Assembly (NCBI GenBank): GCA_013360945.1
Contig: JABWAQ010000016.1
Coordinates: 1-43,086, forward strand
Reading direction: 5' to 3'
From: Candidatus Brocadia sp.
Lineage (GTDB): Bacteria > Planctomycetota > Brocadiia > Brocadiales > Brocadiaceae
Length of the DNA: 43,086 bases
The number at the start of each line of letters is the position of its first letter. The stretch's first letter is position 1. Below are positions 19,102 through 43,062 of this stretch, piece by piece. The translations under genes and the position numbers were made by a program. The notes below the pieces were generated by a model. The model made no database searches and had not been told where the DNA came from. It saw nothing but the letters and a program-made list of their open reading frames with translations.

Positions 19102-21534
19102 ATGGATAGTTTCTTGCCTAAATGGAAACCTTTTTTAAAATATAGTCGCGTTAGCGTCGTGATGATACTTTTGATGCTAACGATCCTGATCTTTGGGGTG
19201 TCAAGGTCTGGATTATTTTCTCACGATGTCCAGGCGCAGACTGCGCCAAAGACGGGTGGGGAAAAGCCCGTCTTTGAACTCGGAGAATCCACTCAAAAAG
19301 AAAGACCTTTATTTGAATTGGAGGCTCCGGTGCATAAGGCGCCTGAGGATACGTCACACACCATACCCAGATTATGGTGGATTGCCCCGATTGGCGCGCT
19401 GTTCGCTCTTTTTTATGCGCGAAGGTTTTACAAAGAAGTCATGAAGGCGCCCGATGGCAACGACAAGATGAAATCGATTGCCGGTCACGTCCGTGAAGGC
19501 GCTTACGCATATTTGAAACAACAATACAAAGTGGTAAGTATATTCTTTATCGGCGCTTTTCTTGTGCTCCTTTTGATCTCCTTTGGATTGCATACCCAGT
19601 CCAAGGTGGTTCCCTTTGCATTCCTGACCAGCGGTTTCCTGTCGGGTCTTGCCGGTTTTCTGGGAATGAAGACGGCCACCAGCGCCAGTTCGAGAACCGC
19701 CGAGGGCGCAAGGAAATCCCTGAACCAGGGATTGCAAGTCGCATTCAGGAGTGGCGCAGTTATGGGGCTGATCGTGGTTGGTATGGGACTTTTGGACATT
19801 TCCATATGGTTTTTCGTGTTCCGTAAATTTACCGATATTTCGTTGCTTGATATGGCTATGATGCTGCCGTGTTTCGGCATTGGCGCTAGTTCCCAGGCAC
19901 TGTTTGCAAGGGTTGGCGGTGGAATTTTTACAAAGGCCGCAGACGTAGGGGCTGATTTGGTGGGTAAGGTTGAGGCAGGTATTCCTGAAGACGATCCGCG
20001 AAATCCTGCTACGATCGCAGATAACGTCGGGGACAACGTTGGTGACGTAGCGGGTATGGGCGCAGACTTGTATGAATCGTATTATAATTCTATGCTTGCC
20101 TGCGCGGCACTGGGTGTAACTGCCGGACTGGGTATTGCCGGAATGGTTATGCCTATGATTTTGGCGGGATTAGGCATCTTCCTTTCCATTATAGGAATTT
20201 ACGCGGTTAAGACAAAAGAAGAGGCATCACAGAAAGAACTCCTGAAGGCGTTGGGAAAGGGGATCAACCTCAGTTCAATCCTGATCCTGATCTTGTCAGC
20301 GGTAATCATCAAGTATATGCTGCCGCAAAATTTTGGCATCTGGGGTTCTATTGTAACAGGATTGATAGCGGGGGTTATTATCGGTAAGGGCACGGAATAC
20401 TTCACCTCTTCCAATTACTCGCCGACCAAAGGTATTGCCGGACAGTCAAGGACGGGGCCTGCTACAGTGATCATCGATGGCATTGCCACGGGAATGATGT
20501 CCACGATTATACCGGTCATCACCATTTCTGCTGCAATCCTATTAAGCTATGCCTTTGCGGGTGGTTTCTCAAACATTTCGCTCGGTCTTTACGGGATCGC
20601 CATTGCGGCAGTTGGTATGCTTTCCACACTGGGATTAACCCTGGCGACGGACGCCTATGGGCCTATTGCGGACAATGCCGGCGGAAATGCGGAAATGAGC
20701 GGTCTTGACCCGCATGTCAGGGAAAGAACTGATGCACTCGATGCATTGGGGAATACAACGGCTGCAACGGGAAAGGGTTTTGCCATCGGTTCTGCAGCTC
20801 TCACAGCCATGGCGCTGATTGCCTCCTTTGTCGAACAAATAAAAGTAGGATTAGAGAGATCGGGGGTCACCGTCATTCAAATTGCCGGCACCTCTATGGA
20901 TATGGCCCAGGCAAAATTGTCCGATCTCATGGATTACCTGGATATTACCCTGATTAATCCAAAGGTGCTGATAGGCCTGTTCATCGGCGGTCTGTCTGCA
21001 TTTGTCTTCAGCGCTATGACAATGAAGGCCGTAGGCCGTGCTGCCGGAAGTATGGTAGAAGAAGTGAGAAGGCAATTCAGGGAAATTGCAGGGATTATGG
21101 ACGGGACGGGAAAACCCGATTACGCTGCGTGTGTGGCGATCAGCACGAGGGGGGCACAACGGGAGATGTTTGTGCCTTCACTTCTGGCCTTAACGGTGCC
21201 TGTTATAACCGGTTTAATATTGGGTGTGCCAGGCGTAGTAGGCCTTTTGGCGGGAAGTTTAACGGTAGGATTCTTGCTGGCGGTCTTTATGGCAAATGCA
21301 GGCGGGGCATGGGATAACGCGAAAAAGTATATTGAAGGCGGAGCATTCGGCGGAAAGGGTTCTCCTGCACACAAGGCGGCTGTCGTGGGTGATACGGTAG
21401 GAGACCCCTTCAAAGACACTTCTGGTCCGTCTTTGAATATCTTACTGAAACTTATGTCCATCGTGTCCGTTGTATTCGCCGGAATTATTATTAAATATTC
21501 GCCCAAAATAGGCGCCCTTCTGCACCTTCACTAG
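19102..21534 (+). CDS. hppA: membrane-bound pyrophosphatase, K+-dependent type
   Basis: This 810-aa ion-pumping pyrophosphatase couples PPi hydrolysis to H+ or Na+ transport. Catalytic motifs are intact: DVGADLVGKVE, the Asp-rich DNVGDNVGDVAGMGADL, TDAYGPIADNAGG, and the C-terminal GDTVGDPFKDTSGPS. The sequence GNTTAATGKGFAIGSAAL has Ala where K+-independent enzymes carry Lys, which indicates the K+-dependent subfamily. The Glu in GADLYES is retained, as in Na+ pumps and related H+ pumps, so the ion is undecided. About 85 extra N-terminal residues precede the core: a signal-peptide-like helix (14-34, then VQAQ) and a linker with a tandem motif (KPVFELGE / RPLFELEA). In anammox bacteria such pumps are candidates for energising the anammoxosome membrane, but location here is inference. 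Confidence 0.93.
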   Translation: MDSFLPKWKPFLKYSRVSVVMILLMLTILIFGVSRSGLFSHDVQAQTAPKTGGEKPVFELGESTQKERPLFELEAPVHKAPEDTSHTIPRLWWIAPIGALFALFYARRFYKEVMKAPDGNDKMKSIAGHVREGAYAYLKQQYKVVSIFFIGAFLVLLLISFGLHTQSKVVPFAFLTSGFLSGLAGFLGMKTATSASSRTAEGARKSLNQGLQVAFRSGAVMGLIVVGMGLLDISIWFFVFRKFTDISLLDMAMMLPCFGIGASSQALFARVGGGIFTKAADVGADLVGKVEAGIPEDDPRNPATIADNVGDNVGDVAGMGADLYESYYNSMLACAALGVTAGLGIAGMVMPMILAGLGIFLSIIGIYAVKTKEEASQKELLKALGKGINLSSILILILSAVIIKYMLPQNFGIWGSIVTGLIAGVIIGKGTEYFTSSNYSPTKGIAGQSRTGPATVIIDGIATGMMSTIIPVITISAAILLSYAFAGGFSNISLGLYGIAIAAVGMLSTLGLTLATDAYGPIADNAGGNAEMSGLDPHVRERTDALDALGNTTAATGKGFAIGSAALTAMALIASFVEQIKVGLERSGVTVIQIAGTSMDMAQAKLSDLMDYLDITLINPKVLIGLFIGGLSAFVFSAMTMKAVGRAAGSMVEEVRRQFREIAGIMDGTGKPDYAACVAISTRGAQREMFVPSLLALTVPVITGLILGVPGVVGLLAGSLTVGFLLAVFMANAGGAWDNAKKYIEGGAFGGKGSPAHKAAVVGDTVGDPFKDTSGPSLNILLKLMSIVSVVFAGIIIKYSPKIGALLHLH

Positions 21535-29870: not shown

Positions 29871-30041
29871 AGTTGATATAAGACTAATGGATGTTAAACT
29901 TAAACTCTTGTCATTGCTTATAGGAGGGCATGCTTGATCAAGGATACGGTAGCTTCAGGAAGGTTGAGTTGCCTGTTGTAAAGGGCAAAGTTGATTGGAA
30001 TAAGAAAGTTTAAGATGGGTTTATTGTAGGAATAGGTATTG

Positions 30042-31139
30042 ATGACAAAATTGTTGGCTATTGTGTTAGGTATGCTCGTGGGTTTCTATGCCACAGTACA
30101 TGGGGATACAATAACTTTGAGGAATGACGGTAAAGATGTCGATCTCAAGGTGACAGGCGTTACGGGGGAATATATAAATGCCGTAATATTAAAAAAAGAT
30201 ATAAAATCCCTGAATATGCAATTTTTGGACACCAAAAATTACCCTGATGTAATTCTTTTAAACGTTGCCAATGTCGCTGTAGAATGTAAAATCAAAGAGA
30301 TTTCCGATGATGCCATTCAGGTGCTAATTCCCACCGTCATGATTTCTTCCCTCAAGATGACCTTTCAACCAGGGGATAAACAGGTAAGGACGGTTTCAGG
30401 TGATGTTGAGAACAGACCAAAGACTGCAGATGTGGTTGTGAAAGAGGAAAATACAGAACAAATGGATGCACGAGCAACTGAATCTAAAATACGTGAAGAT
30501 GTGGGTGGAAGTGGCATTGCTGATGAGATAAGGACGTCACCGGCAGAGAAGGAGGTTAAGGGAATACATTATCGGTTAAAAACGAAAAAGGCAAAAGTGG
30601 GTAGCGCAGAGGTGGAAGATGGCCTATCGAATGCTGAAACAGAGGATGTGCCTCTGGATAGAAATGAATCTGTTGTCAATGGGAAAACACATGAAACAGA
30701 TATGGAACCGTCTGAACTGAAACAAGGACTGGTGGATGAGTCAGTGGATAAAGGGCGTGTGATAGAAGACGAAGAAGATGTGAAAAAGGAAAAGCCGGTT
30801 GCCCAGGATCCAAATCTTGGCAGGGTTGAAGGGAGGATATTGCATGGTGGAAAACCCCTTCCGGAATGTCAGGTAAAGTTGCAAATGTTAGAAAAAAGTG
30901 GGCTGTTAACCAAGGGGTATCGCCCGGTAGAAGGGGCCATGGAACTTGAAGCTGTTACCGGCAAGGATGGTTTATATCGTTTTATGAATGTGTCGCCAGG
31001 CCAGTACAAGCTGTATTGGAAACCTTCGTCAGAGACTGCGTGGGTCAGGCGTTTTAAGATGGAACCGGATGTAATTGTAAGTTCCGGTAAGCTTACCAGT
31101 CCTAAAGAGATTGAAACGTTGAAGAGGACCTTGAATTAG
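30042..31139 (+). CDS. exported protein of unknown function with C-terminal carboxypeptidase-regulatory-like domain
   Basis: Starting at the ATG at 30042 (a TTG just before it is less likely) gives 365 aa. A signal peptide covers about 1-21. A small beta-rich domain (22-115) begins DTITLRNDGKDVDLKVTG. A long charged, low-complexity region (about 120-260) is rich in Glu, Lys and Val. The C-terminal domain (about 265-345) has the GRVEGRILHGGKPLPECQV and GLYRFMNVSPGQYKLYW segments of carboxypeptidase-regulatory-like/CnaB folds. The layout suggests an envelope scaffold or adhesin. It has a separate transcript from the cupredoxin gene, which starts 449 bp later behind its own promoter. Confidence 0.65.
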   Translation: MTKLLAIVLGMLVGFYATVHGDTITLRNDGKDVDLKVTGVTGEYINAVILKKDIKSLNMQFLDTKNYPDVILLNVANVAVECKIKEISDDAIQVLIPTVMISSLKMTFQPGDKQVRTVSGDVENRPKTADVVVKEENTEQMDARATESKIREDVGGSGIADEIRTSPAEKEVKGIHYRLKTKKAKVGSAEVEDGLSNAETEDVPLDRNESVVNGKTHETDMEPSELKQGLVDESVDKGRVIEDEEDVKKEKPVAQDPNLGRVEGRILHGGKPLPECQVKLQMLEKSGLLTKGYRPVEGAMELEAVTGKDGLYRFMNVSPGQYKLYWKPSSETAWVRRFKMEPDVIVSSGKLTSPKEIETLKRTLN

Positions 31140-31483: not shown

Positions 31484-31512
31484 TTGACAAATTCTCTTTG
31501 CGGATGTATCAT
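31484..31512 (+). promoter_or_regulatory. sigma70-type promoter at head of electron-transfer cluster
   Basis: TTGACA (31484-31489), a 17-bp spacer, then TATCAT (31507-31512), a one-base departure from consensus. It lies about 75 bp upstream of the cupredoxin-like gene's start region. Confidence 0.7.
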
Positions 31513-31587
31513 GCTTATCTTTAAATTTTGAATTGAGTATAGTAAGCAAAGTCTAATATTTTAAAGTAACGAATTATGGAGGTAATG

Positions 31588-32349
31588 ATGGTGAAAAGTT
31601 TGCGATATGGAACGATTATCGGTAGTTTGATGCTGGGTGTCATAAGCAATTCGATATGGATGGGCAATATTGCTATGGCACAGGCCAAAGGTGAAGCTTA
31701 CAAAGAGGTTGATGTAAAAGATGGGGGATCAATTGTTGGGACTGTTAGGTTTGACGGCGATATTCCAAATGCTAAAATCTTAAAGGTTGATAAAGATGAG
31801 CAGACCTGCGGCCATGAAAATAAGCAATCAGAGGAGTTGGTTATCAATGGAGAATCAAAGGGTATTAAAAATGTGGTCGTATCACTCGTTGACATTGCAG
31901 CTGGTAAGAAAGCAGAAGTAACGACAGCCGCATTAGATCAGAAAGAGTGCCTGTTTATTCCCCACGTGCTTGCAGTGTCAGCCGGAAGTAACGTGGATTT
32001 GCTTAATAGCGATAACGTAATGCACAATCTTCACTCCTGGTCTATCAAAAATGCAGCCTTTAATGAAGGCGTATCAGGCGGTGGAAAGATGACAAAAAAA
32101 TTTGATCTTCCAGAGATAGTCAAGATAACGTGTGATGTGCACAAATGGATGAGTTCCTACATAGTGGTGAAGAATAATCCTTATTTTGCCGTTACTGATG
32201 AGAATGGAAGTTTCAGGATAGAAAATGTACCGGCCGGTACGTATAAGATTGAGGCCTGGCAAGAGAAGCTTGGAAAAAAGACAAGCGACGTAACCGTAAA
32301 GCCTAAAGAAGAAACTGCGGTAGGCTTTGTTTATACCGCAAAGAAGTAA
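31588..32349 (+). CDS. cupredoxin-like exported protein with carboxypeptidase-regulatory-like tail
   Basis: Several in-frame starts exist (31576, 31585, 31588, 31591). The GGAGGT at 31578-31583 lies inside the first, so 31588 or the GTG at 31591 is likelier; 31588 gives 253 aa. A signal peptide ends near MAQA. The central domain has candidate type 1 copper ligands: His146 or His149 (MHNLH), then Cys182, His185 and Met188 in CDVHKWM. That C-X2-H-X2-M spacing is like amicyanin. A C-terminal domain follows with ENGSFRIENVPAGTYKIEAW. Methylamine-utilisation-type 'plastocyanin' proteins share this layout. It is first in the electron-transfer cluster behind a good promoter. It may be a soluble electron carrier on the outer side of the membrane. 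Confidence 0.8.
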   Translation: MVKSLRYGTIIGSLMLGVISNSIWMGNIAMAQAKGEAYKEVDVKDGGSIVGTVRFDGDIPNAKILKVDKDEQTCGHENKQSEELVINGESKGIKNVVVSLVDIAAGKKAEVTTAALDQKECLFIPHVLAVSAGSNVDLLNSDNVMHNLHSWSIKNAAFNEGVSGGGKMTKKFDLPEIVKITCDVHKWMSSYIVVKNNPYFAVTDENGSFRIENVPAGTYKIEAWQEKLGKKTSDVTVKPKEETAVGFVYTAKK

Positions 32350-32419
32350 TGGAAATAAATGGTATTAAATTTATTATTATGGAATGTGTAACTCACTCGA
32401 TTAAAAAGGCGCACTGCGA

Positions 32420-34585
32420 ATGAATAACTTGAAGATGTTGTTGCAGTTCACGAAAAGAAATGCATGTGTTATTGTTTTCTTGTTTTTTCTCTCCTCTCTT
32501 CCATCCTTTTTGTCTTCCCAAAGAGTAGTTGCTGCTGATGCCCCGGTGCAAACGGCACAAAAAAATGAGGGTGCGGCATCTGGTGTGGAATTACCTCAAT
32601 TTGAGACAGCCCAGCCATCGGCGCCGTCTCAATCGCCCGAAGGTCAGCCCGTGGCGGGTGAAGGAACTGCGACTGCCACTGCAGGGGAGGAAGAAGAAAT
32701 GCCTCCAGTTCAATACCGGGCTTTTTTTGGGATGGACTCCCGTACGGTCGTCTGGATTATATCAGAATTACATCTCATGTTTGCGGCCTTTGTGCTTGGC
32801 GTTCCCATTTTTGCCGTGATCGTGGAGATCGTGGGATTCAAGGGCGGCGACATCAAATATGACAAGATGGCGAAGGAGTTTACCAAGCTCTTGTCTGCTG
32901 CATTTGCCACGACTGCATCGCTGGGAGGTTTGCTTGGATTTTGTTTGTTTGGTTTGTATCCGGAGTTTATGGGTCACATGACGAATGTTTTTGCGCCGAC
33001 CATGTACGTTTATGCCCTGATGTTCTTTGGTGAGGCATTTACTTTGTATGGTTATTATTACTCATGGGATATTCTGAAAGGATCGGCGGCAAAAAAATGG
33101 TTTCATATCTTTTTAGGTGTAATGCTTAACCTCTTTGGAACTGGACTTATGTTCCTGACCAATTCCTGGGCGACTTACATGATGAGTCCGGCGGGGATTG
33201 TGCCGGCGACAGGAAAGGTACTCAGTTTGTATCATGCCATATATAACCCGCTCTGGATGCCGGTAAACATTCACCGGTTAATTGCCAATGTATGTTTTGG
33301 CGGTTTTATTGTTGGTGCCTATGCTGCAGTAAAATTCCTGGGCGCAAAGACAGAAGAAGAAAGGGCGCACTATGATTGGATGGGTTACGTCGGGAACTTT
33401 ATAGGGGTCGGGGCGCTGATTCCTTTGCCATTTGCTGGGTATTGGCTGGGGCGTGAAGTCTATAGCTCCAGTCCCGTTATGGGCAATATTATGATGGGTG
33501 GTGCATTCTCTTGGACGTTTATTGTCCAGGCAATCCTGATTGGTATGCTCTTTATTGGCGCTAATTATTACTTATGGCTTGGAATGGGAAGAATTAAGGG
33601 TTCTGAACGCTACACAAGGTTCATTAAATATCTTATTTTTGTCATCTTCGTGAGTTTTGCTGTATGGCTCACCCCCCATAATCTGCCTCTGAGCGGGGAA
33701 GAAAGGGCAATGATTGGGGAGCAATACCATCCGTTCTCTAAGTATTTCGGAGTCATGGCGGCAAAAAATGCTGTAGTCAATCTGATTATTCTGGCAACCT
33801 TCTTTTCCTTCCTGATTTACCGACGGGGGAATAAAGGGGAGATGGTTCCGTTTTCCGAACAAGGGCGGGCCGGCAAAATAGGAATATTTTCTGCATTAAT
33901 CTTCTGTTTGTTAATGTTAGTTTCGTATGCGATTTCGCTCAATTTTGTAGAGTTGGAGGCTAACATGAAGGATTTTGTGAAGCCACTCATACGATCTCTC
34001 TATATCCAATCGTTTGCGATATGTCTTGCTGCCTTTCTGACCTTTAAGAATAAAGGAAAGTTGGCGCAAGCCATGCTGTTTGCGGTTACCGCGTGTATTG
34101 CCGTGCTCTATTTCTGGTATTATGGTTTTTATGTCATGCAAAAAGCTAACTTGGTGTTGCGATATCTGTCGGTGACGCAGGTTTCGATTGTGATGAGCTG
34201 CCTGATTATGAATGCCATTATAGATATTTTTATCTTCCGTAAGGCAAAACTTGTGGGAGGGATTGTGTGGGGTAAGATGCCGGTGAGATCCCAGTATGCA
34301 TTGATTCTTTTGTGTGTGGTTATTGTGATCCTGATGGGGCTTATGGGTTTTATACGTTCAGGTCTCAGGATGGACTGGCATATTTACGGCGTTTTACAGG
34401 ACACCTCACAATGGGCTTACACACCATCTTTGGCGTACATGGGGCGGATAGTTGGTTTGATTGTGGCGCTCTTTCTGGGGCTTGTGGCCTTCGTGTTCTG
34501 GCTGGCTAACCTGGGCGAAAAGAAGGAGAAAGGGGTGTTGGAAGAAGAATTTAAATTAACAGAACCACATCCGGAGCACTATTAA
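32420..34585 (+). CDS. cytochrome bd subunit I-like (CydA-like) membrane protein
   Basis: This 721-aa protein begins with a signal-like helix (about 14-38) and an Ala/Pro/Gln/Glu-rich linker to about 95. A long polytopic region with at least a dozen hydrophobic helices follows. The first core helix (SELHLMFAAFVLGVPIFAV) matches CydA helix 1, with His118 at the place of the high-spin haem ligand. GEAFTLYGYYYSWD resembles the conserved Glu-containing helix. His285 in NIHRLIANV and Met446 in YFGVMAAKN are candidates for the low-spin haem b ligands. No CydB gene is adjacent, and the protein is much longer than CydA (about 520 aa). The C-terminal half has extra helices. It may be a quinol-oxidising or cytochrome-linked haem protein rather than an oxidase. 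It sits between the cupredoxin gene and five cytochrome c genes. Confidence 0.8.
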   Translation: MNNLKMLLQFTKRNACVIVFLFFLSSLPSFLSSQRVVAADAPVQTAQKNEGAASGVELPQFETAQPSAPSQSPEGQPVAGEGTATATAGEEEEMPPVQYRAFFGMDSRTVVWIISELHLMFAAFVLGVPIFAVIVEIVGFKGGDIKYDKMAKEFTKLLSAAFATTASLGGLLGFCLFGLYPEFMGHMTNVFAPTMYVYALMFFGEAFTLYGYYYSWDILKGSAAKKWFHIFLGVMLNLFGTGLMFLTNSWATYMMSPAGIVPATGKVLSLYHAIYNPLWMPVNIHRLIANVCFGGFIVGAYAAVKFLGAKTEEERAHYDWMGYVGNFIGVGALIPLPFAGYWLGREVYSSSPVMGNIMMGGAFSWTFIVQAILIGMLFIGANYYLWLGMGRIKGSERYTRFIKYLIFVIFVSFAVWLTPHNLPLSGEERAMIGEQYHPFSKYFGVMAAKNAVVNLIILATFFSFLIYRRGNKGEMVPFSEQGRAGKIGIFSALIFCLLMLVSYAISLNFVELEANMKDFVKPLIRSLYIQSFAICLAAFLTFKNKGKLAQAMLFAVTACIAVLYFWYYGFYVMQKANLVLRYLSVTQVSIVMSCLIMNAIIDIFIFRKAKLVGGIVWGKMPVRSQYALILLCVVIVILMGLMGFIRSGLRMDWHIYGVLQDTSQWAYTPSLAYMGRIVGLIVALFLGLVAFVFWLANLGEKKEKGVLEEEFKLTEPHPEHY

Positions 34586-34639
34586 AGTGCATCTGAATAG
34601 TGAGTTTAAAGGCCAAAGAAGATGAAGGGGTAATAACTA

Positions 34640-34684
34640 ATGTTAAATATGACTGAATTTAATTATGGTAAAGCGAAGGCATAG
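34640..34684 (+). CDS. 14-codon mini-ORF before the diheme cytochrome gene
   Basis: An ATG at 34640 preceded by GAAGGGG encodes a 14-residue peptide (MLNMTEFNYGKAKA) ending in TAG 8 bp before the next start. It could be a leader for translational coupling. A chance open frame is equally possible. Confidence 0.2.
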   Translation: MLNMTEFNYGKAKA

Positions 34685-34692
34685 AAAAGCGT

Positions 34693-35643
34693 ATGAATAA
34701 GAGCATGCTAAAAATTACGGCTTTTGGGGTTGCGATTATTGGATTCTACTTGTATATCACTATGTACGTGTCTGGACTATCTGGCACTGGTGGAGCTGAG
34801 TCTGCCGGAGGGATAAGTCCTGAGGCCGGAGAAAAGATTTTTTGGGGGGACGGACAATGCGGAACTTGCCACAAGATTGGAACAAGCGGCAGCGCTACCA
34901 GGGGTCCTGATCAGGAAGGTTTGGCAAACAGGGCAGATGAGCGCGCAAAAGAATTGGGTTTGCCTTCCGGGCTGGATTATCTTGTGGAGTCCATTGTGGA
35001 GCCGGATAAATTTATTGTGAAGGGGTACGATAAAATTATGCCAAAGGTGTACGATCCTCCTATTTTGCTGTCGCGAGAAAAGATACTGGCTGTTTTGGCT
35101 TATCTTCAAACGCTCGGTGGAGAAGCAGACGTTGGTGCCCTTATGAAATATAAGGACAAAATACCTGAAGTATCAAAGAAGAAAGTAAAACCGTGGGTAT
35201 CTCCCATCGCAGTTGATCCAAAAGATGGTGAAAAGGTGTTTTTTGATGAAACACTTCCGGTTACCTGTGGGAAGTGCCACGTCGTGAGTGGGAAAGGAAA
35301 GAAGGTTGGCCCGGAGCTTACGGGGATTGGCGCAATACAAACGCCTGAATATTTCATCGAGTCCATCCTTAAGCCCAGTGCGAAGATTGTGAAGGGGTAT
35401 GAAACGATGTATGTGATTACCACCGATGGGATACCTTATAATGGTGTGATTAAAAGTGAGACCGAGGAAGAACTCGTGTTGTTAAAAGAGGAAAGCGGTG
35501 AAATAGAAGAGATCTCCATTCCAAAAAGTGAGATAGCTGAAATGAAAAAGCAAGAGGTCTCGATCATGCCGGGAAATATTAGTGAGTTGTTAAGTGTGAG
35601 AGATTTTTACGGAATTATATCCTTTTTGCAAAGCTTGAAATAG
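34693..35643 (+). CDS. membrane-anchored diheme cytochrome c with TIGR02603-like domain
   Basis: This 316-aa protein has an N-terminal membrane anchor (about 7-28), then two cytochrome c domains. Haem 1 attaches at CGTCH (Cys56, Cys59, His60) and haem 2 at CGKCH (Cys192, Cys195, His196). KIMPKV supplies a likely Met ligand for the first. The second domain, with GPELTGIG, a 'SILKPSAKIVKGYETM' segment and a small beta-insert before the final helix (DFYGIISFLQSL), matches the planctomycete TIGR02603 haem-binding domain. The haems should face the extracytoplasmic (or anammoxosome) side. It follows the CydA-like gene by about 107 bp and likely accepts or donates electrons to it. Confidence 0.85.
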   Translation: MNKSMLKITAFGVAIIGFYLYITMYVSGLSGTGGAESAGGISPEAGEKIFWGDGQCGTCHKIGTSGSATRGPDQEGLANRADERAKELGLPSGLDYLVESIVEPDKFIVKGYDKIMPKVYDPPILLSREKILAVLAYLQTLGGEADVGALMKYKDKIPEVSKKKVKPWVSPIAVDPKDGEKVFFDETLPVTCGKCHVVSGKGKKVGPELTGIGAIQTPEYFIESILKPSAKIVKGYETMYVITTDGIPYNGVIKSETEEELVLLKEESGEIEEISIPKSEIAEMKKQEVSIMPGNISELLSVRDFYGIISFLQSLK

Positions 35644-35662
35644 TTCAAAGGAGTTGTTGTAT

Positions 35663-35695
35663 ATGCGAGGGAATCAAATGGTAGGAGTACATTAA
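35663..35695 (+). CDS. 10-codon mini-ORF coupled to the next cytochrome gene
   Basis: AAAGGAG at 35647-35653 is ideally placed for the ATG at 35663. The peptide MRGNQMVGVH ends in a TAA that shares one base with the ATG of the following gene (TAATG). This looks like a translational coupling leader; conservation is untested. Confidence 0.3.
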   Translation: MRGNQMVGVH

Positions 35696-36465
35696 TGGCT
35701 AAGAAACGCAGTACTTTTTTGTTTATATGGATTGTCATCTCCATAGCCTGTTTGTTTTTGTTGCTTAAATACGCCTCCCCCAGGATTTTTCAGGTGTTGA
35801 TGGCAAAAGGTCACCCCATGCCAACACCGAGTACCCTGATGATGTGGTATATGATTATGGGCGTGTTGGCTGGTTTGATATATGCAACTACCAGTAATCA
35901 AAAATTTGTAGATTTTTTAAATTTTTTGCTGCCGGATCATGGTCCTTTCATGAAATTTGTGTTGCAAAAGATATTATTTGTTGGTTTCCCTGTTCTTGTG
36001 GGATGGTTTGTGTATTCATGGTCGATTCCAGGAGCTGCATCACCTGTGGAATTAAGGATTCAACATCCGACTTTGCCGCAAGAATTTGAAAAGCTTGAAA
36101 ATCCTTTCAGGCAGGCCGATGCTGAGACCCAGCGAAAATGCGTCGAAGAAGGGAAGATACTTTTTCAAACCTATTGTCGTCCCTGCCATGGTTCAAAAGC
36201 TGATGGAAATGGTCCATTCGCAAATTCGTTCCGACTCAGACCAATTAATTTTCAAGATCCAGGGACCATTGCCACGGTGGTAGATAATTATCTCTTTTGG
36301 CGCATCAAAGAAGGTGGGCCGGGGCTTCCTTCCGAATCTACTCCCTGGGATTCAGCAATGCCTTCATGGAAAGACGATTTGAAAGACGATGAAATCTGGA
36401 AGATCATCATGGGCGAGTATGATACGGCCGGCGTCATGCCCCGGCAAAGGGAGAAATTGGAGTAA
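35695..36465 (+). CDS. membrane-anchored monohaem cytochrome c
   Basis: This 256-aa protein has three hydrophobic segments at about 7-27, 43-62 and 86-108. A soluble cytochrome c domain follows, with CRPCH (Cys161, Cys164, His165) and a GSKADGNGPFANSFRLRPINFQD region. A Met ligand is likely in the SAMPSW segment near 222. The domain resembles the cytochrome c partners of alternative complex III (ActE-like) and related membrane complexes. Its start overlaps a mini-ORF stop and it has a good ribosome site (GGAG at 35683-35686). The haem domain should reside outside the cytoplasmic compartment. Confidence 0.82.
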   Translation: MAKKRSTFLFIWIVISIACLFLLLKYASPRIFQVLMAKGHPMPTPSTLMMWYMIMGVLAGLIYATTSNQKFVDFLNFLLPDHGPFMKFVLQKILFVGFPVLVGWFVYSWSIPGAASPVELRIQHPTLPQEFEKLENPFRQADAETQRKCVEEGKILFQTYCRPCHGSKADGNGPFANSFRLRPINFQDPGTIATVVDNYLFWRIKEGGPGLPSESTPWDSAMPSWKDDLKDDEIWKIIMGEYDTAGVMPRQREKLE

Positions 36466-36552
36466 CGTTGTGTTTGTGGAGAAGGGGGTTGGCTCGCACA
36501 ATTTTTCGTGATTAATTTATTGACGACTAAGGAAGTAGAGCAAGCAAATACT

Positions 36553-38148
36553 ATGATAAAAACGTTTAAAAAAGGAATGGTTGTTTTAGGATTAATCGGT
36601 GTATGCGGTGGTGCTTTTTGGACAAATGGAGAGGTGTCTGCCCAAACGTCGCAATTGTTCAGAAAATACAAACGTGAAGTGCCTCAAAAATTGCCGGAAA
36701 CGCCAGATGCCGTTGCAGAAGGGAAAAAAGTATACGAAAAAAGGTGTTGGTATTGCCATGGAATCGAAGGCAGGGGCGACGGCCCTGCTTCCATTACGAT
36801 GTTTCCAAAACCCAGAAACTTTACACGGAATGAATATAAGGTGCGCTCAACCACCTTTGGGTCTGTTCCTACAGATGAAGACCTCTTTCGAATTATTACA
36901 AGCGGCATAGAGGGGACGGCAATGCCATTCTGGAGTACGATCAGCGAAACAGAGCGATGGCAGGTGCTGTATTATGTCAAGACCTTTAACGATCAGTTCA
37001 AAAAAGACGCTACACCAAAAGTAGTCCCTATTGTAAGTATTGCATCAACGCCGGAAAGTATAAGCAGGGGGCAGGAGTTGTTTAAGGAAACGAAATGTTT
37101 TGAATGCCATGGTGATGATGGCAGGGGCAACGGACCATTAACAGTGGCCTTGCAAACAGAATGGAATATGCCTTATCGTGCAAGGGATTTAACCAAAGGA
37201 TGGAATTTTAAGGGCGGTAATACGATAGAAGATATTTATCGTACGATCTCAACAGGCCTTAATGAAACTCCTATGGGGTCTTATTTGGAAAAGCTTTCTG
37301 ACGAGGATCGCTGGCATGTTGCCCATTTTGTAAAAAGTATCTCCAGGGACATGGCATCAGACGTAGTAGTTAAGGTAAAGTTATTTGAGGGGGATCTGTT
37401 GCCGTCAGAACCTTTTGATGAAAACTGGAGTAAGGCTTCTCCTGTTGAAATCCCCTTGGCCGGTCAAATTCTTACAAGTCCCAGACAGTGGACACCCTTG
37501 GTCGATGCGATTATGATTAGGGCATTGTATAATAAGGATGAAATTGCATTTTTGCTGGAATGGGATGATACCACGAATAAACAAGAGGAAGTTTTCAGGG
37601 ATGCGGTTTCTATTCAGTTCCCTACAAAGATTCCGGAATCGTTAAAGAAGCCCTATTTTGCCATGGGAGATTCCAGTGGTGCGGTAAATCTTTGGAGCTG
37701 GAAGGCATATTGGCATGAGGGATTTGGATCGGTTATAGAAGCGCCTGTCACGGAACCAGGTATGGTGAGTGAATTAAATGCGAAGGGTTTCAAAAATGTT
37801 GTACTCCAGCCTGCTGAAAGTCAAAATGTGACGGGAAGAGGAGTGTATCAAAATGGGAGTTGGAGGGTTGTGCTGAAAAGAACTTTGAAGACGGAAGATG
37901 TGAAAGGAGATATGCAATTCGAGATTGGGAAATTAATCCCCGTGGCCTTTGCTGTTTGGGATGGTTCGAATAGCGATGTGGGAGGTCTAAAATCTATTTC
38001 GTCCTGGTATTATGTCTCTCTTGAAAAGCCGGTGCCCAAAACGGTTTTTGCCTATGTATTGGTAGCGATCGTTATAGGTGCAAGCATAGAAATGTGGTTT
38101 ATAGCAAGGTTGCGCAGGTTTCCGCCAAAGTTAGAAGATCGGGAATAA
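36553..38148 (+). CDS. diheme cytochrome c fused to NXR-C/ethylbenzene-dehydrogenase-gamma-like haem b domain, C-terminal anchor
   Basis: Starting at the ATG at 36553 gives 531 aa with a signal peptide (MIKTFKKGMVVLGLIGVCGG...VSAQ). An upstream in-frame GTG at 36508 only adds a hydrophilic leader. Two cytochrome c domains carry CWYCH (Cys65-His69) and CFECH (Cys182-His186), each followed by GxGxGP-type loops. Residues about 275-490 match the haem b gamma subunit of type II DMSO reductases (EB_dh fold). Met371 in FAMGD precedes NLWSWKAYW, the counterpart of MGD ... NLWHWKADW in the NXR-C-like gene at 42088. A membrane helix (about 497-518) and a basic tail end the protein. It would form a three-haem, tail-anchored wire. 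It has no separate Mo subunit nearby within the window. Confidence 0.85.
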   Translation: MIKTFKKGMVVLGLIGVCGGAFWTNGEVSAQTSQLFRKYKREVPQKLPETPDAVAEGKKVYEKRCWYCHGIEGRGDGPASITMFPKPRNFTRNEYKVRSTTFGSVPTDEDLFRIITSGIEGTAMPFWSTISETERWQVLYYVKTFNDQFKKDATPKVVPIVSIASTPESISRGQELFKETKCFECHGDDGRGNGPLTVALQTEWNMPYRARDLTKGWNFKGGNTIEDIYRTISTGLNETPMGSYLEKLSDEDRWHVAHFVKSISRDMASDVVVKVKLFEGDLLPSEPFDENWSKASPVEIPLAGQILTSPRQWTPLVDAIMIRALYNKDEIAFLLEWDDTTNKQEEVFRDAVSIQFPTKIPESLKKPYFAMGDSSGAVNLWSWKAYWHEGFGSVIEAPVTEPGMVSELNAKGFKNVVLQPAESQNVTGRGVYQNGSWRVVLKRTLKTEDVKGDMQFEIGKLIPVAFAVWDGSNSDVGGLKSISSWYYVSLEKPVPKTVFAYVLVAIVIGASIEMWFIARLRRFPPKLEDRE

Positions 38149-38183
38149 AATACTAATATATTTAAAAGGGTTAAGGAGTTTTT

Positions 38184-39686
38184 ATGCGGTTAAGGTCTGT
38201 AGAGTGCCTACTTATTGTATCAGTTTTCGTTTTCATAATTTGTGTTCCCTGTATGATTTTTTCAAGTGTTTCATTCGGGCAGGAGCGGAAGATAGATGCC
38301 CTTTATCTGGAATTAGATAAAAAGTATCGTATTCCTGAACAATGGACTGTCCTTCCCTTTGAACTTGAAGACCCTTATAAGAGAATTAAAAACGGGCCTC
38401 CGTTAGTCAATATCATGAGTAAGGCAAGGGTGGAGTGGATTTCCCGATGGATTGCAAATCCCAAAAAGGTGGTGCCGAATGCAAAAATGCCAAATCTGGG
38501 GTTGGATTTTGAGGAGATTAAGGCTGTTATTGCTTATTTGGCTAGTATTGCGGAGAAGGAAGCCCCGCAGATATCGTGGGATCCTTTTTTGTTAAAAAAT
38601 GAGGAAGAACTGTCTGAAGATGAATACGATAAGATGGATAAGGTTTATAATAACGGAAAAGGTGTGTGGGGGCGTGCCCGTTGTACGATTTGCCATCCAA
38701 TAAAAGGAGTAGGGGGGAACGTGGGCGTAGGTCCCGACCTGGGTGAAATTACTACAAAAATAAACAGGAATTGGTTGTATGACTGGCTCAGCAACACGAA
38801 GAACCATTTTCCGGATACCATGATGGCACAATACCGATTTACAGATGCCGATGTGCGGGGAGTTGTAGAGTTTATCATGCGTGATACACAGTTTATCCCA
38901 GAAGAAAAAGAAGAAGAAGATGAGGACGAGGGGCAGCCCAAAGAGCCACTACCTGCGGAGACTGAGGTTAAAGTGCTGACAGAACAAGAATTTGGGAATA
39001 TAAGAAAAGATAATGCCCTTATTGAAAAAGGTAGGGATGTGGTTGAAAAAGCACGGTGCTTTGTCTGCCATGATATTAAGGGAATACCTGAAATAATGCC
39101 CGTAGTCGAAAAAAAGCGGGATGGGTTGGCCGGATTTGAAAAGCTTTTGTATGAAATACGGTGTCTGTCCTGCCATCGGATACAAGACAACGGCGGTACC
39201 TATGCTCCGAATCTGACAATTGCTGGCAGTAAGATTAAGATGTTATGGGAAAGGGAGTTTTTGCAGGTGCCAGACATTATCAGACCGCTGAGTCAGCAGA
39301 TGCCAAAGTTTAACCTGGCCGAAGATGAAGCGGGGGTAGCGACCGAGTATATGGAAAAAAACCTTATCGTTAAAGAAGGCCTTCCGGATTTTTATAAAGA
39401 AGGGGCGCTTTCTCCGGAAATTATTGCGGCCGGTGAAAAGCTTTTTTATGAAAAAGGATGCAATGTCTGCCATTCAGAAAGTATTACAAAGGGCGGCGGG
39501 GTGGTTGGTCCTAGCCTTGCGACGGTTGGGGACAGACTTCAGCCTGCATATATCCTTTATCATTTACAAAATCCACAACGGGCAAACCCTCAAGCCATAG
39601 AACCAAACTTTGGTTTGTCAGAAGCTGATCTGAGGCAGCTAGTAGGTTTCCTGGTTGACCATGTGAAGAAGAAAGAGGGTAAATAA
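38184..39686 (+). CDS. tetrahaem cytochrome c with degenerate N-terminal cytochrome domain
   Basis: This 500-aa exported protein (signal peptide about 1-32, ending near SFG) has four haem sites: CTICH (167-171), CFVCH (292-296), CLSCH (327-331) and CNVCH (426-430). A region at about 70-120 (WISRWIANPKKVVPNAKMPNLG, then FEEIKAVIAYLAS) looks like the C-terminal half of a cytochrome c domain with its Met ligand but without its own CXXCH. An acidic linker (about 238-262, rich in Glu/Asp) splits the first and second haem domains. No second membrane helix is apparent. It has a direct ribosome site (AAGGAG) and its stop shares a base with the next ATG (TAATG). The likely role is a multihaem electron carrier in the outer compartment. 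Confidence 0.85.
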   Translation: MRLRSVECLLIVSVFVFIICVPCMIFSSVSFGQERKIDALYLELDKKYRIPEQWTVLPFELEDPYKRIKNGPPLVNIMSKARVEWISRWIANPKKVVPNAKMPNLGLDFEEIKAVIAYLASIAEKEAPQISWDPFLLKNEEELSEDEYDKMDKVYNNGKGVWGRARCTICHPIKGVGGNVGVGPDLGEITTKINRNWLYDWLSNTKNHFPDTMMAQYRFTDADVRGVVEFIMRDTQFIPEEKEEEDEDEGQPKEPLPAETEVKVLTEQEFGNIRKDNALIEKGRDVVEKARCFVCHDIKGIPEIMPVVEKKRDGLAGFEKLLYEIRCLSCHRIQDNGGTYAPNLTIAGSKIKMLWEREFLQVPDIIRPLSQQMPKFNLAEDEAGVATEYMEKNLIVKEGLPDFYKEGALSPEIIAAGEKLFYEKGCNVCHSESITKGGGVVGPSLATVGDRLQPAYILYHLQNPQRANPQAIEPNFGLSEADLRQLVGFLVDHVKKKEGK

Positions 39687-40255
39687 TGAGATATTTTTTC
39701 TCTGGAAAAAAATTAATTATAAACTCATTCATTGTGTTGGGTGTTTTGTCCATCTATTCAACAGCTAAAGGGTTAGATGTTTCCCCGCGTGACCAGGTAT
39801 TTTTGCTTTCCCCTAAGAAGACCTTTGAGTATTACTGTTCACCCTGTCATGGCATGAAAGGCAAGGGGGACGGTACGTTCTTTACAATCGATTTAAAGCC
39901 GAAGCCGAGAAATTTTACCGATGTTGAATACATGAAGAAAAGAACGGATGATATACTTGTAAAGTCCATTACTGAGGGTTCGAAGGCTGTTGATAAGTCG
40001 AATCTGTGCCCTCCGTGGGGAAAGACACTTACCGAGAAGCGGATAAAGGAGCTTGTGGTTTATATACGCAGTTTTTCTGTGCATGAACAGGAAGTTTCAA
40101 AGCCAGTAGCAGTGGCTAAAGAGCTTACAACCGAAGACGAAAAGAGCAGCGTATTTAAATCATTGGTGCGGTGGCTATTTGTAGGTGTAATTACTCTGGC
40201 ATTAGCAGGCGGGGCTATTAACGAATGGAAGAAACTGAAGAATAAAGTATCTTAG
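39686..40255 (+). CDS. tail-anchored monohaem cytochrome c
   Basis: This 189-aa protein has a signal peptide (about 1-29), one haem site CSPCH (Cys51, Cys54, His55) followed by GMKGKGDG, and a C-terminal membrane helix at about 157-178. The cytochrome domain is close in style to those of the gene at 36553 (CHG.xG.GDG and PKPRNFTD). It is translationally coupled to the tetrahaem gene by a TAATG overlap. It probably faces the same compartment and passes electrons within the same complex. Confidence 0.85.
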   Translation: MRYFFSGKKLIINSFIVLGVLSIYSTAKGLDVSPRDQVFLLSPKKTFEYYCSPCHGMKGKGDGTFFTIDLKPKPRNFTDVEYMKKRTDDILVKSITEGSKAVDKSNLCPPWGKTLTEKRIKELVVYIRSFSVHEQEVSKPVAVAKELTTEDEKSSVFKSLVRWLFVGVITLALAGGAINEWKKLKNKVS

Positions 40256-40285
40256 TGTTAGAAAATAATCGACCAAATATTCTTT

Positions 40286-41620
40286 ATGTATAAAAAAATA
40301 TTTATTGCAATCGATAATTCGCAGCATTCAAATTTTTGCATTGATCTCGGCATTGACATTTCCAAAAAATTTGGTTCATTGCTGGTGGGGTGCCATGTCT
40401 ATGATGCTGCTTTGCATCAAAGGCGTTTTCGTGATATGGAGAAAGGGTTGCCTCCACAGTTTCAAGACGAAAACGTCCTTCAGCGACAGCGTGATCTTCA
40501 TAGTTCTCTGATAAATCTTGGACTCAAGTTGATTTCAGAGTCTTATCTGGACGTTTTTAAAAATAAGTGCAGAGATGCAACTGTTCCCCATGAAGGCCTC
40601 TTGCTGGAAGGCAAGAATTATTATGAAATTATTAAAGAAGCCCAAGGAGAACATTATGACCTGATGATTCTGGGCGCGCTTGGTTTGGCTGCCGTTAATG
40701 AAAATACGCTTGGCAGTGTTTGTGAACGTGTTGTCAGGCGTGTTAAGACCGATGTGCTCGTAGTAAAAAACAGGTGTTTGGAGAGAAAGGTTTTAGTTGC
40801 CGTAGACGGAAGCATACCATCTTTCGCTGGGGTCAGATCAGCCATTGCTTTTGCAAAGTCGTTCAACCTGAAACTTGCTGCTGTGTCCGTATTTGACCCG
40901 CATTATCACCGCGTTGCTTTTGAAAGTATTGCAAATGTACTTTCTAAGGAGGCAGGACAGATTTTCAGATTTAAGGAACAGGAAACACTCCATGAGGAGA
41001 TTATTGATAAAGGTTTGGCAAAGATCTACCAGGGTCATCTAGATCAGGTAAATCGCATGGCGGCGGATGCGGGATTGGAAATAGATACCGTTCTTATGGA
41101 CGGTAAGCCGTATGATAAAATATTAAAATACATCCAGAATGAAAACCCATCCATGTTAATTGCTGGACGTACCGGAGTGCATAATACCAACGGATTGGAT
41201 ATTGGGAGTACGACAGAAAATTTACTGAGGTTGGCACCATGCAATGTATTGCTTGCCGGAGAAAATATTGAGGCAAAGCTTAGTGCTTCAAGGGAATATT
41301 CAGAATTTAAAAGGAGTTCTGTAAATGAAAAACAACCTCTGGTAAGCTCCTGCGATCAGGCACTGAAAGAAAATGGTTTTTTAATATCGGCTAAGGCTGA
41401 TCAAGATATTTGCGATAAACCGCCACTGGAAACACAAAATCCTGTTTGGACACAGGAAGCACGAATTCAAACGGAACGCATTCCTTCTTTTGTCAGGGAG
41501 GTGGTTAGGAAAAAAATTGAAGAGTATGCTTGCGAGAGAGGCTACCAGGAAATAACTGCGCAGATTGTCAGTGAAGCAAGGACCGTGTTCACGAAAGATG
41601 ATCCGTTTCATAAGGTTTGA
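40286..41620 (+). CDS. tandem universal stress protein with PCP_red-like C-terminus
   Basis: This 444-aa cytoplasmic protein has two Usp domains (about 1-160 and 168-330). Each has an ATP-binding loop of the G-2x-G-9x-G(S/T) type: GALGLAAVNENTLGS and GRTGVHNTNGLDIGS. A variable linker (about 335-382) is followed by a roughly 60-residue tail. The tail's pattern (W..EA....ERIPSFVREVVRKKIEEYA...G...IT..IV) matches the PCP_red domain, best known from the light-independent protochlorophyllide reductase B subunit. The fusion is uncommon. It sits between the last cytochrome c gene and the NXR-C-like gene, 30 bp after the former. A regulatory or assembly role for the redox complex is possible. No clear ribosome site precedes the ATG. 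Confidence 0.82.
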   Translation: MYKKIFIAIDNSQHSNFCIDLGIDISKKFGSLLVGCHVYDAALHQRRFRDMEKGLPPQFQDENVLQRQRDLHSSLINLGLKLISESYLDVFKNKCRDATVPHEGLLLEGKNYYEIIKEAQGEHYDLMILGALGLAAVNENTLGSVCERVVRRVKTDVLVVKNRCLERKVLVAVDGSIPSFAGVRSAIAFAKSFNLKLAAVSVFDPHYHRVAFESIANVLSKEAGQIFRFKEQETLHEEIIDKGLAKIYQGHLDQVNRMAADAGLEIDTVLMDGKPYDKILKYIQNENPSMLIAGRTGVHNTNGLDIGSTTENLLRLAPCNVLLAGENIEAKLSASREYSEFKRSSVNEKQPLVSSCDQALKENGFLISAKADQDICDKPPLETQNPVWTQEARIQTERIPSFVREVVRKKIEEYACERGYQEITAQIVSEARTVFTKDDPFHKV

Positions 41621-41644
41621 CAAAAGCATTGTTCGCTGTATAAT
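41617..41644 (+). promoter_or_regulatory. perfect consensus sigma70 promoter for the NXR-C-like gene
   Basis: TTGACA (41617-41622), a 16-bp spacer and TATAAT (41639-41644) match consensus at all 12 positions. The -35 box overlaps the Usp stop codon. Transcription would start near 41651, leaving a leader of about 435-440 nt before the ATG at 42088. Confidence 0.7.
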
Positions 41645-42087
41645 TATAAAAATGCGAACACATGGCACAAGAGTTCCGGGCAGATTCACCCCTTGCCTTA
41701 TATACCGTGTTTTTAATTACTCATAATTATTCGTGTCAGTGTTTTAATGTCCTTTTCGATTGTGCATTAAGTATTTCAGATAGGAAACGCGCCCTTGATC
41801 AGTTAATTTGTTATGTGAGCGGTTGAATTTATGTAAGATAATGAAAATAAAAAGCCTACGTTCTGCGCTACTTATATGAATTGTGCTTGTGTAGTGGAAT
41901 GGATTTTGCGCAATATTTGATAATCGTTGGCAGAAGATTGAATTTCAAATTTAAAAAAATGTGTTAGCGGGTGGAGGCAAAGAAGTAGATAGTTTTTATG
42001 TGTTTGTGTTCGGTACCTTTATGAGGGTGTAATCGTTAAAAGTCATTGGGTTATTTTAAAAATATATTGTTTAAGGAGGAGAGGGGA
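41621..42087. other. long leader / intergenic region before NXR-C-like gene
   Basis: 467 bp without a convincing gene. It starts with the promoter at 41617-41644 and ends with a strong ribosome site (AAGGAGGA at 42073-42080). It contains loosely paired TGCGC/GCGCA segments around 41870-41915 but no clear terminator. It could be a regulatory 5' leader or encode a small RNA. Confidence 0.5.
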
Positions 42088-43062
42088 ATGAAAAAAACTT
42101 ATTTGATGTTTAAAAGATATGGTGTTGCCCTCTTGAGTTGTGCTTTTCTTAGTACTGCATTGTATGCGGCTGAGGAAACGGCACCGGGGGTGACAGGGGT
42201 GAGTGAAGAGGAGTTTACACCGGCAAAAGAAGTGTTAACGGTTAAATATGTGATGATGGACAGACCATATCACATGGATGTGGAATCATTGCAGGGCGCG
42301 TTTAAGGACGCGCAAGTAGTTACAATTCCGTTTCAAAAACAGGATAAGGCGTTTCCCAATGGTGGTGGATCTGTAAGCAGCGCAGAAGTAAAAGCTATTC
42401 ATGATGGTCTCGCAATATATTTCAAGATTTCCTGGAGTGATCCGACGAAGAATGCCAGGGCGATTGCCGTTCAGGAATTCAGGGATGCCGTTGCGTTGAT
42501 GTTTCCTCTGGGGGCCGTGGAGATAACGCCTGCGGAACATTTCAGCCCCAGGATGGGAGATCGTGAAAAACCGACAAACCTTTGGCACTGGAAGGCGGAT
42601 TGGGAAGCTGATTTGTTGGTTAGAGGTGAGCTGGAGGATGTTGAACAGCAGTATCCAAACATGCATGATGATTGGAATTTTAATCCGTACAGCGCATATT
42701 ATCATCGGGATTTGATAACCAGTGTGGAGGTTTTATCAGGGGGAAGGGCAGCCGATAACTTACTTTCTAAGCCGGGAAGAGGAAGAACAGTAGAAGATTT
42801 AAATGCAGAAGGCTTTGGTACCCTTACTACTCAAGCCCATCAGGATGTAAACGGATGCAGCAAATATGAGAACGGAGTATGGACGGTAATAGTATATCGT
42901 TCTTTAATTACAGAAGACCCGCATGATGTGCAGTTTGTTCCTGGTGGGAAAACCTTTTACAACATGGCGATATGGAACGGCGGTGAACAAGACAGGAATG
43001 GGCAAAAAAATATATCTACCCAATGGCATCCGGCAGTGTTAGAAAAGGTTGCCTGGCAATAG
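42088..43062 (+). CDS. nxrC: nitrite oxidoreductase gamma subunit-like haem protein (NXR-C-like)
   Basis: The ATG at 42088 is fixed by AAGGAGGA 7 nt upstream; an in-frame TTG at 42046 is rejected. The product has 324 aa with a signal peptide (MKKTYLMFKRYGVALLSCAF, cleavage near LYAAEE). The mature part is an EB_dh-type haem b domain as in ethylbenzene dehydrogenase, dimethylsulfide dehydrogenase and NXR gamma subunits. Met156 in PRMGD is a candidate axial ligand and Lys320 near the C-terminus a candidate for the other. In anammox bacteria this subunit connects NXR-A/B to outside electron carriers. The catalytic subunits are not in the window, and the next gene lies past the right edge. Chlorate- or perchlorate-type gamma subunits are an alternative, but context favours NXR. 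Confidence 0.85.
   Translation: MKKTYLMFKRYGVALLSCAFLSTALYAAEETAPGVTGVSEEEFTPAKEVLTVKYVMMDRPYHMDVESLQGAFKDAQVVTIPFQKQDKAFPNGGGSVSSAEVKAIHDGLAIYFKISWSDPTKNARAIAVQEFRDAVALMFPLGAVEITPAEHFSPRMGDREKPTNLWHWKADWEADLLVRGELEDVEQQYPNMHDDWNFNPYSAYYHRDLITSVEVLSGGRAADNLLSKPGRGRTVEDLNAEGFGTLTTQAHQDVNGCSKYENGVWTVIVYRSLITEDPHDVQFVPGGKTFYNMAIWNGGEQDRNGQKNISTQWHPAVLEKVAWQ

Follow-up and report, generated by a model that had tools for sequence, protein, structure and literature searches.

The accessory, electron-transfer half of the nxr gene cluster in a Candidatus Brocadia contig, and the wide distribution of its five-gene core

In the anammox bacterium Candidatus Kuenenia stuttgartiensis, the genes of nitrite oxidoreductase (NXR) lie in the nxr cluster kustd1699-1713, which runs from a blue copper protein (kustd1713) to NXR-C (kustd1704), carries an NXR-T gene (kustd1705), and includes nxrB and nxrA. 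Transcripts of the whole cluster are down-regulated when NO replaces nitrite. Fractionation places 84-99.5% of the kustd1705-1712 products with the membranes and most of the copper protein kustd1713 in soluble form (PMC11897245); by protein signal, kustd1713 is about as abundant as NXR-C in Kuenenia. The haem of NXR-C must hand its electrons to a partner outside NXR, and Kartal et al. (2013, cited after PMC6606698) hypothesised that a membrane complex connects NXR with the quinone pool. Nitrospira, Nitrospina and anammox bacteria have been reported to share a conserved bd-like/alt_NxrC/cytochrome c gene cluster. The described islands of iodate reductase (idr), in turn, have no dedicated quinone oxidoreductase.

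The window analysed here is a 43,086-nt stretch of a Candidatus Brocadia sp. contig. ORF calling resulted in nine consecutive + strand ORFs at 31576-43062, the same nine genes as in the first-pass annotation, whose start at 31588 falls on an ATG inside the first ORF and in its frame. The ORFs and two promoter-like sites are the following.

31484-31512, + strand: promoter-like TTGACA-N17-TATCAT (11/12), upstream of the copper-protein gene
31576-32349, + strand: type 1 copper protein with N-terminal signal-like sequence and C-terminal CarboxypepD_reg-like domain; kustd1713 orthologue
32420-34585, + strand: CydA-like polytopic protein of 721 aa, PF01654, bd-like and of OR-N type by its Nitrospirota homologues with the same cytochrome neighbour genes; kustd1712 orthologue
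34693-35643, + strand: dihaem cytochrome c, two CXXCH; orthologue of Kustd1711 (PDB 7zs0, an identity resting on the entry title, length and literature)
35695-36465, + strand: monohaem cytochrome c with hydrophobic N-terminal helices, one CXXCH; kustd1710 orthologue
36508-38148, + strand: dihaem cytochrome c fused to an EB_dh (NxrC-like) domain, hydrophobic C-terminal segment; kustd1709 orthologue
38184-39686, + strand: tetrahaem cytochrome c, four CXXCH; kustd1708 orthologue
39686-40255, + strand: monohaem cytochrome c with hydrophobic C-terminal segment; kustd1707 orthologue
40286-41620, + strand: tandem Usp-domain protein (Pfam Usp 5e-37) with C-terminal PCP_red domain (9e-14); kustd1706 orthologue
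41617-41644, + strand: perfect promoter-like TTGACA-N16-TATAAT where the 425-bp gap ahead of nxrC begins
42046-43062, + strand: NXR-C, haem b gamma subunit of nitrite oxidoreductase; kustd1704 orthologue

The ORFs follow the order kustd1713-1706 and then kustd1704, and the locus is the accessory, electron-transfer half of the already described anammox nxr gene cluster, with the same genes in the same order as in Kuenenia from the blue copper protein to NXR-C. Unlike the Kuenenia cluster, the window has no NXR-T gene between the Usp gene and nxrC, an absence from that position that has been reported for genera other than Kuenenia, and it stops before both nxrB and nxrA. The order Cu-CydA-dihaem-monohaem-EB_dh-tetrahaem-monohaem-Usp-NxrC-NxrB-X-X-NxrA was identical in all 11 Brocadiaceae regions examined, apart from one extra gene in L040, and because of this identity the gene pattern is far beyond chance. 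A comparison of gene order across relatives had been proposed as a check with the first-pass annotation; carried out in silico, it leaves that reading unrefuted. The extra gene (L040:6608-7168) encodes a 186-aa monohaem protein between Usp and NxrC, i.e. in the NXR-T position, and is missing from the window.

The contig ends 24 bases past nxrC, where relatives carry NxrB, two smaller genes and NxrA downstream. No NxrB was found in this assembly, in which nxrC is present twice, each copy near a contig end; the second copy (G000:C128:14639-15628, L002/L053) is 90% identical and is without the accessory module. Two nxrC and two nxrB copies were present in another genome (G275). A collapsed or unbinned repeat is the likely explanation for the missing NxrB. 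The CydA-like protein of the window grouped with Candidatus Brocadia sequences, and Brocadiaceae had one CydA-like copy per genome.

Immediately before the copper gene (window 30039-31139) lies a gene for a 366-aa protein with no Pfam family, which had a homologue at the same place in 21 of the Brocadiaceae loci (38-72% identity) and none among the non-anammox module loci. A membrane H+-pyrophosphatase gene is located ca. 10 kb upstream (window 19102-21534).

Within the locus, a TAATG overlap was found at one junction only (39684-39688), where the start of the monohaem gene overlaps the stop of the tetrahaem gene; the earlier count of several such overlaps was therefore too high. The remaining intergenic gaps were 30-107 bp, in addition to the 425 bp ahead of nxrC. 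A TTGACA-N17/18 site (10-11/12) equivalent to that before the copper gene was present in all 11 relatives tested, and in a control, a comparable 425-bp gap that was shuffled 1000 times reached 11 in only 4 cases. The perfect site before nxrC overlaps the end of the Usp gene. A counterpart of 10-11/12 in this position was limited to some relatives (L041, L055), which makes the function of the site uncertain. With promoter-like sites ahead of both the copper gene and nxrC, two transcription units in the locus are plausible.

The CXXCH motifs of the five cytochromes add up to ten (2+1+2+4+1), and Pfam recognised Cytochrom_C/CBB3 domains in these five products, EB_dh in two, and Usp together with PCP_red in one, all in agreement with the counts of haem motifs, EB_dh domains and Usp protein given in the first-pass annotation. 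The dihaem protein is an orthologue of 7zs0 over its full length (phmmer 6e-167); the haems of Kustd1711 are near +350 mV, and a role in nitrite oxidation has been proposed for it. One haem motif was retained in 102/102 members of the 1710-type monohaem family, and two in 99/102 members of the 1709-type family. The EB_dh domain of the 1709-type protein matches 7b04_C and 2ivf_C, and its M386 and K495 correspond to the NXR-C haem ligands M155 and K305. In the wide family, these positions were variable in an uncertain alignment (Met in 35/88, Lys in 15/88), and the ligand pair was dropped as a family feature. The window NxrC is in turn an orthologue of 7b04_C (phmmer 9e-143), with an EB_dh domain and with M170 and K321 aligned to the ligands M155 and K305.

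The putative type 1 copper site was likewise upheld, as the ligands H150, C186, H189 and M192 (C-x2-H-x2-M) were invariant in 82/82 aligned relatives. The copper protein gave no strong PDB match.

The 721-aa protein had been described as a bd-oxidase-like polytopic protein, which agrees with a Cyt_bd_oxida_I Pfam match (4e-20) confined to residues 108-353, and with an AlphaFold model (pLDDT 84.5) of which the top Foldseek matches were all bd-oxidase CydA chains. In a profile alignment to canonical CydA, with an E. coli reference sequence validated at its known residues alone, E. coli H19 corresponded to H118, E107 to E205, H186 to H285, and E99 to Y198. Among 106 CydA-like relatives, His was found at H118 in 105, Glu at E205 in 101, His at H285 in 106, and Tyr at Y198 in 106. 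The quinol-site residues K252 and E257 had no Lys/Glu equivalents in the aligned stretch, and a quinone site is therefore not evident; the M393 and E445 regions fall outside the reliably aligned part. Compared with the canonical cytochrome bd quinol oxidase (CydAB), the window protein thus shares the CydA fold and keeps the equivalents of H19, E107 and H186, but it has Tyr in place of E99, lacks alignable K252/E257, and is longer. No CydB was present among the nine products.

On sequence comparison, the protein belongs to a bd-like family that it shares with Nitrospira. In Nitrospirota genomes, relatives of this type, often paired, precede cytochromes of the 1711, 1710 and 1709 types and have the ligand pattern of the window protein, in agreement with the bd-like clusters described in Nitrospira and with the OR-N class. 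Unlike the Brocadiaceae clusters, the Nitrospirota regions read had two CydA-like copies and no NxrC-NxrB-NxrA downstream. The ligand patterns were also tried as a discriminator between oxidases and non-oxidases and were rejected, as presumed Nitrospirota terminal oxidases have mostly the same pattern.

The five-gene core, i.e. Cu-CydA-dihaem-monohaem-EB_dh, is not confined to anammox bacteria. Searching GTDB genomes with the CydA-like alignment returned at least 575 relatives, of which the best 80 were kept, and the phyla with the core set number a dozen or more. Among 60 loci from outside the anammox bacteria, 59 had the dihaem gene, 54 EB_dh, 53 the monohaem gene and 50 the copper gene, and 25 carried at least two CydA-like copies; as the loci are best-scoring matches, these frequencies are not unbiased. 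That the five genes recur in many other bacterial phyla, in some of them beside an iodate-reductase-type molybdenum enzyme, is the less expected point of the analysis.

An Idr/Aio-type catalytic subunit was located at most 8 kb from the CydA-like gene in 20 of the 60 loci, and nxrA and nxrB were near the module in two, L074 of Poribacteria and L078 of Rokubacteria, the latter of which also carries an Idr/Aio-type enzyme. The window itself has no such enzyme; its likeness to the iodate reductase clusters (idrABP1P2) is through these 20 loci, in which the same CydA core is the neighbour. Many of the idr/aio-type neighbours come with a Rieske subunit and two CCP_MauG peroxidases, a synteny that has been reported for idrABP1P2. 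In the planctomycete L049, the module lies upstream of an idr/aio-type enzyme with a Rieske subunit and a CCP_MauG protein. The idr/aio-linked loci fell into separate groups of the tree (SAR324, Rokubacteria, Proteobacteria), and L049 into another.

The one molybdenum enzyme compared in detail (L092) was 28-30% identical to plasmid-borne AioA and 48-67% identical to three plasmid homologues, two of which (Azonexus, Vibrio) adjoin two cytochrome c peroxidases. The module was absent around these plasmid-borne relatives in idr-type clusters, within the stretches read. No description of the link between the module and idr was found in the open-licence papers searched.

Further genes were observed near the module. 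A HEAT-repeat protein of ca. 750 aa follows the molybdenum enzyme in L092 (L092:6804-9074), and a protein of similar size takes this place in many proteobacterial loci. NirJ2-like radical SAM proteins occurred in L047, L049, L074, L099, L125 and others; the two scanned, those of L047 and L049, have a C-terminal PCP_red domain, as does the Usp protein of the window.

At the threshold used, a search of 50 module-bearing genomes returned NxrA-like proteins in 12, Idr/Aio-like proteins in 21, both in 3 and neither in 20, and on account of these last genomes the core is not tied to nitrite. Because it adjoins both idr/aio-type and nxr genes, it looks like a portable electron-transfer complex for periplasmic molybdenum enzymes of high potential. 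We give an even chance to the five-gene core being a portable respiratory complex that various enzymes of this kind share as their partner in the membrane. It would serve NXR in anammox bacteria, and it lies near nxr in Poribacteria and Rokubacteria; in Proteobacteria, SAR324, Rokubacteria and one planctomycete, the enzymes served would be of the iodate-reductase/arsenite-oxidase type.

For the anammox locus, we favour, as moderately probable, a membrane complex carrying nitrite-derived electrons from NXR into the membrane chain, with quinone as the favoured acceptor. Soluble NXR-ABC, the A and B genes of which would lie just past the window end, would oxidise nitrite, and the electrons would exit via the haem b of NXR-C with its Met/Lys ligands. 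From there, the copper protein (31576-32349) is the most likely soluble carrier of high potential to take them to a membrane complex presumably built on the CydA-like protein and the 1711-type dihaem, 1710-type monohaem and 1709-type dihaem/EB_dh subunits, to which the tetrahaem 1708- and monohaem 1707-type cytochromes may be attached. There the electrons would enter the membrane chain, probably at the quinone pool and by energy-driven reverse transport. The membrane location of the kustd1705-1712 products, together with the soluble and abundant kustd1713, fits a soluble carrier feeding a membrane complex, and the presence of the core beside other periplasmic molybdenum enzymes and in Nitrospirota bd-like clusters is as expected of a general partner complex. 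Counting against the favoured model are the lack of alignable K252/E257 equivalents, the 20 module-bearing genomes with neither NxrA-like nor Idr/Aio-like proteins, and one proteome in which the CydA-like and 1710 proteins were undetected.

The potential of nitrite, ca. +0.42 V, is far above that of menaquinone. Quinone reduction therefore needs energy coupling, and none is visible in the sequence. The first-pass interpretation, that the locus moves nitrite-derived electrons to or from the quinone pool and possibly replaces a bc1-like step, is kept in its first part as far as electron transfer of anammox NXR is concerned, on the grounds of the NxrC and dihaem orthologues and the kustd1713-1704 gene set. 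The bc1 replacement is unsupported, as anammox bacteria have Rieske/cytochrome b complexes of their own (PMC12954380); as to a bc1-like complex in the locus, Pfam assigned neither a Rieske nor a cytochrome b domain to any of the nine products.

An unlikely alternative is that the electrons stay at high potential and bypass quinone altogether, with a cytochrome c/copper-protein pool delivering them to nitrite reduction or to further anammox enzymes. The lack of a recognisable quinol site in the CydA-like protein speaks for it, the +350 mV haems of the 1711 protein and the type 1 copper site suit such a pool, and the potential of nitrite reduction to NO (+0.38 V) is close; it leaves unexplained, however, why every Brocadiaceae cluster conserves a polytopic haem-family protein of ca. 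700 residues, when a soluble carrier would suffice.

That the CydA-like protein would instead be a cytochrome c-dependent O2 reductase (OR-N type, on the likeness defined above) for oxygen scavenging appears improbable. The family overlaps with the Nitrospira bd-like proteins, which have been proposed to act as O2 reductases, the equivalents of H19, E107 and H186 are retained, and this explanation is kept because the ligand patterns give no separation in Nitrospirota. Against it stand the Tyr in place of E99 in 106/106 relatives, the E445 region that could not be aligned, the anaerobic growth of anammox bacteria, and the one CydA-like copy per Brocadiaceae cluster versus the CydAA' pairs proposed for OR-N oxidases. 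A set of genes mainly for NXR assembly, tubule anchoring or regulation, which the Usp protein and the tubules that NXR is described to form with an accessory haem protein might suggest, is very improbable, as ten haem c motifs, a copper site and a bd-like subunit indicate redox work and the core is present without NXR in many genomes.

The nine genes form a genuine and functionally coherent locus that was known before; what is added here is the family placement of the CydA-like protein and the mapping of its ligands, the wide distribution of the core, and its repeated proximity to a second type of molybdenum enzyme, the idr/aio type. The membrane complex that we favour bears on how electrons leave NXR in anammox bacteria and on the energetics of nitrite oxidisers. 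If the core indeed serves an iodate-reductase-type enzyme in unrelated phyla, the complex would be open to study outside anammox bacteria, and nitrogen and iodine cycling would be linked via one kind of electron-transfer complex.
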